From Deltaproteobacteria bacterium (GTDB lineage Bacteria; Desulfobacterota; Binatia; DP-6), in contig VBKJ01000144.1 in assembly GCA_005879795.1 (NCBI GenBank), positions 1-33,814 on the forward strand: a DNA stretch of 33,814 nucleotides. The letters run 5' to 3'. Below the pieces are notes generated by a model, which saw only the letters and a list, made by a program, of their open reading frames with translations, ran no database searches and was not told the origin of the DNA. Shown piece after piece: positions 12,741 to 30,389 of the stretch. Numbering within the stretch: the first letter of the stretch is position 1; every line of letters begins with the position of its first letter. Position numbers and translations under genes: made by a program.

Positions 12741-12770
12741 CTAGGAGCCTGTCCGAGTAAGGCTCCTGGG
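12741..12770. repeat. Hairpin, probable collapsed copy of the 28430-28609 repeat; possible two-way terminator
   Basis: AGGAGCC (12743-12749) pairs exactly with GGCTCCT (12761-12767) around an 11-base loop containing GTCCGAGTAA. The left half (CTAGGAGCCTGTCCGAGTAA) resembles the left end of the repeat at 28428 (CTAGGAGGCCGTCCGGGTAA), and the right half (CTCCTGGG) resembles its right end. It lies exactly between two convergent genes, so it may also stop transcription in both directions. No T-run follows. Confidence 0.5.
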
Positions 12771-26683: not shown

Positions 26684-26701
26684 CGGCCGTGCCGGCTCCG
26701 G

Positions 26702-26731
26702 TTGCCGGCGCCTTCCCGCCTCTGCTACCGG
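26702..26731 (+). promoter_or_regulatory. Candidate promoter of the amidohydrolase gene
   Basis: TTGCCG (26702-26707) and TACCGG (26726-26731) are separated by 18 bases. The ATG at 26740 lies 8 bases beyond. The -10 match is poor on its own. Its position relative to the start matches the other candidates in the window. Confidence 0.28.
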
Positions 26732-26739
26732 GGCGGCGC

Positions 26740-28431
26740 ATGCTCGACCTCGTCCTGCGCGGCGGCCGGGTCTGCGACGGCAGCACCGCCCCGGCGCGGG
26801 ATGCGGACGTGGGGATCGACGCGGGACGGATCGTGGCGATCGGCCGCGTCGACGGCGCCGCCCGGCGCACGCTCGACGTGCGCGGTCTCGTCGTCGCGCC
26901 GGGGTTCGTCGACGTGCACACGCACTACGACGCGCAGGTGACCTGGGACCGGCTGTGCACGCCGTCGTGCTGGCACGGGGTCACCTCGGTCGTGATCGGG
27001 AACTGCGGCTTCGCGCTCGCGCCCTGCCGGCCGGGTGAGCGTGAGCGCCTCCTGCGCATGCTCGAGCACGTCGAGGGCATGCCGTTCGAGAGCCTGCGGG
27101 CCGGCGTCGCGTGGGAGTGGGAGTCGTTCGCCGACTACGTGCGGGCGCTGCGCGCCCGGCCGCTCGGCGTGAACGTCGGCGTGCTCCTCGGGCACTCGGC
27201 GCTCCGCGCCTATGTCATGGGCGACGACGCGTACGCGCGCCAGGCGCGGACCGGCGAGGTGGAGGCGATGGCCGCCCTGGTGCGGGAGGGCATGGCCGCG
27301 GGCGCGGTCGGGCTCGCGACCTCGCGCTCGCCGGCGCACGTCGGCGAGGGCGGCCGGCCCGTCCCCAGCCGGCAGGCGAGCCGCGAGGAGCTGGGCGCCC
27401 TCGTCGCGGCGATGGCCGCGTCGGGCCGGGGCGTGCTCGAGATCACGTCCGAGACCTTTCCCGTGTCGGCCGACGAGCTCGCCTGGCTGCAGGACCTCGC
27501 GCGGGCGTCCGGGCGCCCCGTCAGCTTCAGCGCGATCCTCGACGTCCCCGACCGCCGCGACGCGTGGGAGCCCGTCTACGCGCGGCTCCGCGAGGGCCTC
27601 GCCGCCGGCGCCGCCGTCTACCCGCAGGTGTCGTGCCGCCCGATGCGCTTCGACTTCGACCTCGCCACGGGCTGCGCGTCGCTCGACGCGATGCCGTGCT
27701 GGCGCCGCTGGCGCGCGGCGCCATCCGACGCCGCGCGGCTGGTACTCCTCGCCGACGCCGGGTTCCGGGCCGCCGTGAAGGCCGAGGCGCTCGGCCGGGC
27801 GGGCGCTCCGGCCGGCCGGCGCTGGGGCGAGGTCGTCCTCGAGGAGGCGTCGCGTGCCGAGCACGAGACGCTCGTCGGCCGCACGCTGGCCGAGATCGCC
27901 GCGGCCCGCGGTGGCGACACGATCGACGCGCTCCTCGACCTGTCCGCGGCCGAGAACCTGAGCGCCCGCTTCTCCATGCTGCTCATGAACTACGACGACG
28001 AGCACGTGGGCGCCCTCCTCGGCCGGCCCGAGAGCCTGATCGCGCTCTCGGACGCGGGCGCGCACGTCTCCGTCCTCTGCGACGCCGGCTACGCGACCCA
28101 CCTCCTCGGCCACTGGGTGCGCGGGCGCGGTCTCTTCGGGTGGGAGGAGGCGGTGCGCCGGCTCACCGCGATGCCGGCTGCGATCTACGGCATCGCGGAG
28201 CGCGGGCTCCTGGCGCCCGGGCGGGTGGCCGACGTCGTCTGCCTCGATCCGACGCGGGTCGCGGCGCGCGCGCCGGAGAAGGTGCACGACTTCCCGGGCG
28301 GCGCGGCGCGCTACGTCGCGCGTGCCGAGGGCATCGAGCACGTCTTCATCCGTGGCGAGGAGTTCCTCGCCCACGGCGAGTGGACCGGGGCGCACCCGGG
28401 CGTGGTGCTCGACGGGGCGGCCCGTGGCTAG
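26740..28431 (+). CDS. N-acyl-D-amino-acid deacylase-like amidohydrolase
   Basis: This 563-residue amidohydrolase has the N-terminal small β domain MLDLVLRGGRVCDGS and a metal site DVHTHYD (H60, H62). GVTSVVIGNCGFALAP carries C89, the Cys that serves as a metal ligand in D-aminoacylases. LLGHSALRAYVMGDDAY, VGLATSRSPAHVGEGG and a late IALSDAGAHVSVLCDAGY with the conserved Asp follow. Enzymes of this group hydrolyse N-acyl-D-amino acids or related amides, and many annotated members have untested substrates. I chose the ATG at 26740 over an in-frame GTG at 26689 because the family fold starts here. The TAG stop lies inside the left end of the inverted-repeat element, so the C-terminus may have been set by its insertion. 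Confidence 0.9.
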   Translation: MLDLVLRGGRVCDGSTAPARDADVGIDAGRIVAIGRVDGAARRTLDVRGLVVAPGFVDVHTHYDAQVTWDRLCTPSCWHGVTSVVIGNCGFALAPCRPGERERLLRMLEHVEGMPFESLRAGVAWEWESFADYVRALRARPLGVNVGVLLGHSALRAYVMGDDAYARQARTGEVEAMAALVREGMAAGAVGLATSRSPAHVGEGGRPVPSRQASREELGALVAAMAASGRGVLEITSETFPVSADELAWLQDLARASGRPVSFSAILDVPDRRDAWEPVYARLREGLAAGAAVYPQVSCRPMRFDFDLATGCASLDAMPCWRRWRAAPSDAARLVLLADAGFRAAVKAEALGRAGAPAGRRWGEVVLEEASRAEHETLVGRTLAEIAAARGGDTIDALLDLSAAENLSARFSMLLMNYDDEHVGALLGRPESLIALSDAGAHVSVLCDAGYATHLLGHWVRGRGLFGWEEAVRRLTAMPAAIYGIAERGLLAPGRVADVVCLDPTRVAARAPEKVHDFPGGAARYVARAEGIEHVFIRGEEFLAHGEWTGAHPGVVLDGAARG

Positions 28432-28609
28432 GAGGCCGTCCGGGTAATCATGGCGGCTCCGGCGAACGAGCCGGGGGCTGCGAGCGGCGTGCTCGCTCCT
28501 CCCTCCTGCGGCGTGCCTTCAGGCACGCCTCGTCGGTCGTCACTGCGCTTGCCGCGCTCGCTCCCCGGCTCGTTCGCCTCGCTCGCCATGATTACCCGGA
28601 CGGACTCCT
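28430..28609. repeat. 180-bp inverted-repeat element (MITE/REP-like hairpin)
   Basis: The two ends are near-perfect inverted repeats of about 55-58 bases with few mismatches. The left outer part AGGAGGCCGTCCGGGTAATC starts at 28430 and its partner ends at 28609 with GGACTCCT. The match continues inward through CATGGCG and GGCGAACGAGCCGGGG. The centre holds a further palindrome, GGCGTGCCT (28510-28518) and AGGCACGCC (28521-28529). As RNA or single-stranded DNA the whole would fold into one long hairpin. It has no credible gene; an open frame through it is a by-product. Its left end contains the stop codon of the amidohydrolase. A probable collapsed copy is at 12741-12770. The remaining 28610-28718 holds only the promoter of the ABC-F gene. 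Confidence 0.8.
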
Positions 28610-28681
28610 GGGTGCCCGAGGCGCTCGTCACCCTCGCCGCGGGGGCCGCCGGGCTCGCCGTCACCGCGCGCTGAGCCGCGC

Positions 28682-28718: not shown

Positions 28719-30389
28719 GTGCTCAACGTCGCCGGCATCGCCAAGCGCTACGGAGGCCAGGTCGTCCTCGACGACGTCACCTGGGCCGTGCCCGACGGCG
28801 CTCGGGTCGGGCTCACCGGGCCGAACGGCGCCGGGAAGTCGACCCTGCTGCGCATCATCGCGGGCGAGGTGGAGCCGGACCGGGGCACGGTCGCGCTGCC
28901 GCGCGGTGCGCGCGTCGGCTATCTCCCGCAGCACATCCTCGGCACGCGCGGCGTCACGGTACGCCGGCACGCGCTCGCCGCCTTCGCCGAGCTGCACGAG
29001 CTGGAGGCACAGCGCGCGGCGCTCGAGCACGCGCTCGCCACGGTCCCGCCCGAGAGCGAGGAGTACACGGCGGTCATGGAGCGGTACATGACGGTGTGCG
29101 AGGAGTGGGACCACCGCGGCCGCTACGACACCGAGGCCGAGGCCGAGGCGGTGCTCGCCGGGCTCGGGTTCGGGCCCTCCGACATGGAGCGCGACTGCGG
29201 CGAGCTCTCCGGCGGGTGGCAGATGCGCGTCGCGCTCGCCCAGCTCCTCCTCCGGCGCCCCGACTTCCTCCTCCTCGACGAGCCCACCAACTACCTCGAC
29301 CTCGAGGCCCGGACGTGGCTCGAGGAGTTCCTGGTCGCGTACCCGGGGACGCTCATCATGGTCGCGCACGACCGCTACTTCCTGGACGTGACCGTCGACC
29401 ACATCGCCGAGGTGCTGCACGGGCGCGTCACGGACTACCCGATGAACTACAGCCACTACCTGGCCGAGCGTGAGGAGCGCCTCGAGCAGGCACGCAAGGC
29501 CTACGAGGACCAGAAGGCCGAGATCGAGCGCGTCGAGGCGTTCATCCGCCGCTTCCGCTACCAGGCTTCCAAGGCGGCGCTGGTGCAGAGCCGCGTGAAG
29601 CAGCTCGAGAAGATGGACCGCCTGCCGCCGCCCGACGGCCACGAGCGCACGCTCAAGATCCGCCTCCCCGAGGCGGCGCGCAGCGGGCGCGCGGTCGTCG
29701 AGCTCAAGGGCGCGCGCAAGCGCTTCGGCGCGGTGCGCGTCTACGACGGCGCCGACGTGCTCATCGAGCGCGGGCAGCGGGTCGCGCTGGTCGGGCCGAA
29801 CGGCGCCGGCAAGACGACGCTGCTCAAGATGCTGGCCGGCGTGCTCGCGCTCGATGGCGGCGAGCGGCGGGTCGGGCAGAACGTCGCACTCGGCTACTTT
29901 GCGCAGGATCACGCCGAGATGCTCGACCCCGAGCGCACCGCGCTCGAGGAGGTCCTGGCCGCGGCGTCGATCGAGACGGCGCCGCACGTGCGCTCGCTGC
30001 TCGGCGCTTTTCTCTTCTCGGGCGACGCGGTGGAGAAGCGGACCGCGGTGCTCTCGGGCGGCGAGCGGAGCCGGCTCGCGCTCGCCAAGCTCCTGGTCGA
30101 GCCGTCGAACTGCCTCCTCCTCGACGAGCCCACCAACCACCTCGATTTGACCGCCAAGGAGGTGCTGATGGAGGCGCTCCTCGCCTACACCGGCACGCTC
30201 GTGCTGGTCGCCCACGACCGCTACCTCCTCGACCGGCTGCCGACGCAGGTGATCGAGGTCGGGGGCGGGAAGGCGGTGCGCTACCTCGGAAACTACGAGG
30301 ACTACCTGCGCGCCAAGGCGAGCGCGGTGGCCGCCGCGAGCGCGCCGCAGGGCGCCCGGGCGGCCGGCCCGGCGCGCGCGAGCCGCTAG
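28719..30389 (+). CDS. ABC-F family ATPase
   Basis: This 556-residue soluble protein has two ABC domains and no membrane segment. Domain 1 has Walker A GPNGAGKST (about 34), an inserted arm, LSGGWQMRVALAQLLL (about 163) and LLLDEPTNYLDLEA. A charged helical linker (about 240-300) follows, ending KAALVQSRVKQLEKMDRLPPP. Domain 2 has GPNGAGKTT (about 360), LSGGERSRLALAKLL (about 445) and LLLDEPTNHLDL. ABC-F proteins act on the ribosome as translation factors, and some protect against antibiotics. The signature LSGGWQMR and domain lengths fit a housekeeping Uup/YheS-like member rather than a known resistance type; that is an inference. The GTG start begins domain 1 directly. The stop abuts the stop of the convergent gene with no base between them. 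Confidence 0.95.
   Translation: MLNVAGIAKRYGGQVVLDDVTWAVPDGARVGLTGPNGAGKSTLLRIIAGEVEPDRGTVALPRGARVGYLPQHILGTRGVTVRRHALAAFAELHELEAQRAALEHALATVPPESEEYTAVMERYMTVCEEWDHRGRYDTEAEAEAVLAGLGFGPSDMERDCGELSGGWQMRVALAQLLLRRPDFLLLDEPTNYLDLEARTWLEEFLVAYPGTLIMVAHDRYFLDVTVDHIAEVLHGRVTDYPMNYSHYLAEREERLEQARKAYEDQKAEIERVEAFIRRFRYQASKAALVQSRVKQLEKMDRLPPPDGHERTLKIRLPEAARSGRAVVELKGARKRFGAVRVYDGADVLIERGQRVALVGPNGAGKTTLLKMLAGVLALDGGERRVGQNVALGYFAQDHAEMLDPERTALEEVLAAASIETAPHVRSLLGAFLFSGDAVEKRTAVLSGGERSRLALAKLLVEPSNCLLLDEPTNHLDLTAKEVLMEALLAYTGTLVLVAHDRYLLDRLPTQVIEVGGGKAVRYLGNYEDYLRAKASAVAAASAPQGARAAGPARASR

Follow-up and report, generated by a model that had tools for sequence, protein, structure and literature searches.

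MITEs are usually seen as shrunken copies of one insertion sequence, and are defined by their ends. The Correia (NEMIS) and ERIC elements are MITE-like hairpins located between genes, and both use TA targets. Correia-bearing mRNAs of Neisseria are cut by RNase III (PMC10969869). Within the IS1182 family, ISMac2-related MITEs of 160 and 169 bp have been reported from Methanosarcina acetivorans; these are short, carry no gene, have end repeats of about 25 bp and an IS1182-family partner IS, and one of them is listed with 4-bp direct repeats (PMC3852290). IS1272/TnSha1, of the same family, replaces hairpins without target duplication (PMC5678879, PMC4923244). A listed family of predicted short RNAs in Geobacter metallireducens has the central palindrome GRCGTAGCGCTGCTACGCC; its members are intergenic, e.g. 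near lysine/arginine genes, and transposon ends go unmentioned in the passages of that report devoted to them (PMC2700814).

The window analysed here, a stretch of 33,814 nucleotides of a deltaproteobacterial genome (class Binatia, contig VBKJ01000144.1), contains a hairpin element of 184 nt which starts at a TAG stop codon (Table 1). No description of it was found in the open-access literature on IS1182, MITEs and CTAG. The element resembles the Methanosarcina MITEs in being short and without a gene, in its end repeats and in its IS1182-family partner; its own interior is a conserved hairpin, which recurs between ends of other kinds. Like Correia and ERIC it is a MITE-like hairpin between genes; unlike them it has a CTAG target and belongs with the IS1182 family, and it is known here from its DNA sequence.

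Table 1. Coordinates of the hairpin element, its parts and the neighbouring genes in the window.
Feature	Position	Strand	Remarks
Left target duplication, CTAG	28428..28431	+	28429-28431 is the TAG stop of the amidohydrolase gene; based on an IS1182 empty/occupied pair
MITE body, 176 bp	28432..28607	.	Limits from 18 copies in the same genome and from relatives
Right target duplication, CTAG decayed to CTGG	28608..28611	+	Intact in the majority of the other copies
Left terminal inverted repeat including CTAG, CTAGGAGGCCGTCCGGGTAA, IS1182 type	28428..28447	+	
Right terminal inverted repeat including decayed CTAG, CCAGGAGTCCGTCCGGGTAA on the minus strand	28592..28611	-	
Conserved core; minus strand a ladder of G/A internal loops	28477..28564	-	Covariance models R1 and R2
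Central 9-bp palindrome, hairpin tip	28510..28529	.	Exchanged for different palindromes in some copies
Second, collapsed remnant of the same kind of element, CTAGGAGCCTGTCCGAGTAAGGCTCCTGG	12741..12769	+	Adjoins the stop codon of a minus-strand gene
Amidohydrolase, native TAG at the insertion site	26689..28431	+	Amidohydrolase-family matches below curated cut-offs
ABC-F family ATPase, downstream	28719..30389	+	NF000355, over cut-off

A preliminary description of this DNA had placed a hairpin at 28430-28609. The hairpin itself was borne out, whereas its exact limits were not, as the true span is slightly wider (28428-28611); the net gain is 180 bp when one CTAG copy is counted with the body. Arms of about 55-58 bases had been described, and we find 59-nt arms (28430-28488 and 28551-28609) that are 81% complementary. 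The internal 9-bp palindrome (GGCGTGCCT/AGGCACGCC) and the start of the element inside the amidohydrolase stop codon were likewise confirmed. The folding energy of positions 28420-28620 is -141.1 kcal/mol, against a mean of -94.5 for shuffled sequences (z -9.86), and none of 200 shuffles was as stable. An Rfam search of the window and seven related loci gave only tRNAs over the gathering cut-off; the sub-threshold matches were to long-hairpin miRNA models only. A tRNA gene is located at positions 14-87 of the window. The open frames inside the element had been suspected to be spurious, which agrees with the indels and exchanged loops that distinguish the copies (119 to 220 bp long) and with the core also occurring between unrelated ends. 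A reading of these frames as a real protein was dropped, as the length differences and loop swaps disrupt the frame.

The element proved to be multi-copy when its genome and related genomes were searched, and not a single-copy structure confined to orthologous sites. The genome of origin (4.1 Mb, 280 contigs) contains 18 copies with both ends, collected by hand and 119-220 bp long. There are also one-ended copies, and some dozen collapsed remnants (17-46 bp) in which only the two ends are left, e.g. CTAGGAGGCCGTCCGGACTCCTAG. Diverged copies are present in two genomes of the same family and in two further genomes of the class; a plasmid search for the element found none. Among copies the hairpin tip is exchanged for GGCGTGCC/GGCACGCC, GGCGTAGC/GCTACGCC or a longer GC-rich palindrome. 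The element is thus short, repeated and without a transposase gene, as MITEs are. Palindromic remnants of 17-38 bp, made up of two element ends flanked by CTAG, were seen at eight loci, and suggest frequent loss of the hairpin interior by deletion, or excision footprints.

The ends of the element, CTAGGAGnCyGTCCGrGTAA, match those of IS1182-family insertion sequences. At least 120 stretches, belonging to many phyla, contain the end pattern CTAGGAGNCYGTCCGRGTAA, and in three contigs among the matches listed two such ends face each other 1.54-1.62 kb apart. Two of these three contigs were translated, and both encode IS1182 transposases that pass the NCBIfam IS1182 cut-off (NF033551, E 3.7e-106 and 1.5e-122). 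Closely similar CTAG[GC]AG-type ends occur in IS1182 elements of the same class, one of which has the end CTAGGAGTCTGTCCGAGAAA, only 1-2 bases off that of the element. A transposase with matching ends, the search for which had been recommended, is therefore found in the IS1182 family, and the element is very probably an IS1182-type, MITE-like element that is non-autonomous and moved in trans at CTAG. For this very element, mobilisation in trans would follow from the likeness of the ends.

Neither NF033551 nor DDE_Tnp_1 (PF01609) gave a match in the genome of origin, a fragmented assembly in which IS elements are lost, so the partner transposase has been lost, is unassembled or was always elsewhere. 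An IS1182 transposase over the cut-off is encoded in a genome of the same family (G006), on a short contig and without CTAG ends, and weaker matches were obtained in another genome (G001). IS1182-end loci of other phyla have other interiors, with no convincing core match there. At five loci of other bacteria, Planctomycetota included, the same IS1182 ends enclose elements of near-constant size (283-285 bp) with another interior. A Klebsiella phage record holds an IS1182-family element with CTAG ends, whose transposase is 41% identical to one from Nitrospira.

The core of the window element is not confined to IS1182-type ends (T1). It was also found between IS1380-type ends (T2, CTAGCCCGGATnATTCATGA) in one genome, between a third type (T3, AGAGCYTATCCCACAAGG-like) in two related genomes (G024 and G031; loci L337 and L334), and in the genome of origin itself between very different T4 ends, TAGTGTGGTTTCCGC (C128:26182-26293, L354). 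The T2 ends flank an IS1380-family transposase in a further genome and in a viral contig. This brings the kinds of ends around the core to four at least, IS1182 and IS1380 among them. T3-type ends in viral contigs (GAGCCTATCCCACAAG) were also considered and rejected, since no partner end lies within 3 kb of them and nothing sets them apart from ordinary sequence. With a wider covariance model, 17 of the 395 genomes sampled from the phylum gave related cores, with up to a dozen copies each among the matches listed. In a set of 12 related elements, every one aligned to the window-type core better than any of its own 300 dinucleotide shuffles did (z 5 to 16).

One core homologue, in genome G495, holds GGCGTAGCGCTGCTACGCC, the Geobacter palindrome verbatim, of which the window copy has the variant GGCGTGCCTTCAGGCACGCC; the palindrome is also found nearly verbatim on another contig of the genome of origin and in copies of genome G005. 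Compared by this central palindrome, the Geobacter short-RNA family is probably a branch of the same hairpin family.

Within the IS1182-type family, compensating double changes were observed in 17 of 70 pairs, a number equalled by none of 500 shuffles, and sliding the partner destroyed the signal. Across T1, T2 and T3 elements 92.9% of cells are paired, compared to 35-39% when slid. The stems of T1 and T2 are only 41% identical, yet pairing is kept, and 26 of the 59 pairs of their consensus have changed on both sides. The pairing counts are descriptive, since they come from related copies whose own sequences served to derive the structures; the slid controls are the guard. At the mismatched loop positions T1 and T2 share 78% identity, and 83% of the bases are purines; several GA and GCA loop positions do not vary among the 15 sequences. 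Folded with RNA energies, the minus strand is the more stable one in 36 of 36 copies (related, and hence not independent), because the loops are G/A-rich on this strand and C/T-rich on the other. DNA energies favour the minus strand in only 23 of 28 copies, and do not favour it in the window copy.

The persistence of the mismatches argues against the arms being kept alike by gene conversion, which would erase them. From diverged stems that remain paired and from conserved mismatched loops we infer that selection acts on one folded strand, as RNA or single-stranded DNA. A plain MITE, whose core would be left over from a single ancestral element, with ends exchanged by recombination and a fold without function, seems less likely to us, though by no means remote: recombination among MITEs can swap ends and the copies are related by descent, but stems at 41% identity are still paired, the mismatched loops are the most conserved columns, and conversion from arm to arm would have removed the mismatches. 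Nearly as likely as not is the fuller reading of a portable, strand-specific hairpin of about 180 nt with near-invariant G/A loops, which would have spread through a bacterial phylum on the ends of IS1182, IS1380 and two or more further types, and which may be kept by selection on a folded single strand (RNA or single-stranded DNA).

The target of insertion could be read from a Roseomonas plasmid, on which an IS1182 element is flanked by CTAG on either side. On two other plasmids the same 504 bp, 100% identical, contain a single CTAG, an empty site at which nothing has been lost. Insertion of the Roseomonas IS1182 element hence duplicates the 4-bp CTAG, an observation that belongs to a related IS with slightly different ends and not to the window MITE. 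No empty site was found for the MITE itself, nor in joined-flank searches for two other IS1182 copies. CTAG is present on both sides in 10 of the 18 full copies, and on at least one side in 17.

These flanks bear on a different mode of insertion, in which the element would replace a pre-existing hairpin without target duplication. IS1272, of the IS1182 family, is known to target hairpins and terminators in this way (PMC5678879, PMC4923244). It shares its transposase family with the Roseomonas IS1182 member, which instead duplicates CTAG; the empty site with exactly one CTAG contradicts replacement for that IS, and together with the CTAGs around the full copies makes it very improbable for the element.

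It had been claimed that the element supplies the stop codon of the amidohydrolase gene, and this claim had to be abandoned. Alignments of the amidohydrolase with its homologues run to residue 557-559 of 560, and the two homologues that could be read in frame stop no more than two residues from there. Since the homologues end at about the same point and CTAG is duplicated on insertion, the TAG is native and was preserved. A stop supplied by the element, beyond an open frame (WVPEALVTLAAG...) running past the CTGG target, was considered because the right CTAG has become CTGG, and was ruled out by the two in-frame homologues.

The copies were mapped relative to stop codons, as the preliminary description had advised, and 18 of 30 insertion sites are at stop codons (19 including the window copy with its decayed right CTAG), compared to 54 of 142 background CTAGs (38%; Fisher p 0.04 for 18). 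The remaining background CTAGs lie between genes (59) or inside genes (29). The background was taken from a 427-kb sample of the genome of origin, 90% coding, annotated with a codon-model gene caller. From base composition about 1060 CTAGs would be expected in this sample; with 153 found, the site is depleted about 7-fold. With 38% of CTAGs being stop codons in a CTAG-poor genome, the stop-codon bias is mostly explained by target choice, and selection against other sites may account for the modest excess. Of 413 gene stops called in the sample, 140 are TAG and only 15 are TAA. Relative to the gene whose stop it occupies, the element has the same orientation in seven cases and the opposite in two, too few to interpret.

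The position directly 3' of a stop codon and the very stable fold would also suit a local terminator or RNA-processing hairpin of the amidohydrolase gene. We regard this as highly improbable: the element is multi-copy at unrelated sites, no T run follows the hairpin in the window sequence, and the strand with the conserved purine loops is opposite to the amidohydrolase transcript. This last point also speaks against the suggestion that the element acts in RNA processing or termination between the two genes. Mobilisation as a REP/BIME-type repeat by a RAYT (Y1 tyrosine) transposase can practically be dismissed, for although the element is palindromic, extragenic and multi-copy, these are 184-bp elements with end repeats of about 20 bp and CTAG flanks that match DDE IS1182 insertion sequences, and they are without the short REP unit, a 20-40 bp palindrome tagged GTAG or CGTC. 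Of the mobile repeat of MITE or REP type first envisaged, the non-autonomous MITE-like part stands and the REP/RAYT part falls, the ends matching IS1182.

For a MITE-like element of the IS1182 kind we propose that an IS1182-family DDE transposase supplied in trans would recognise the element ends of about 20 bp and insert the element at CTAG, which would be duplicated. If such a CTAG closes a gene that terminates with TAG, insertion would leave the stop codon unchanged. Between the mobile ends there would be a separate hairpin module that folds, on one of its strands (the minus strand here), with regular G/A-rich internal loops. The folded strand, as RNA or single-stranded DNA, may be recognised by something and selected, and the module would have travelled on ends that belong to two or more transposase families.

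The location of the elements at stop codons has a simple reason: CTAG is rare except at stops and between genes, and its duplication leaves the stop intact. The ends are here exchangeable and the interior is constant: one fold is shared by two unrelated transposase families, and these IS1182 ends enclose other interiors elsewhere. If the fold is the selected part, it is a parasite or a cargo of transposons, and the question of why many bacterial repeats are long imperfect hairpins would become testable.
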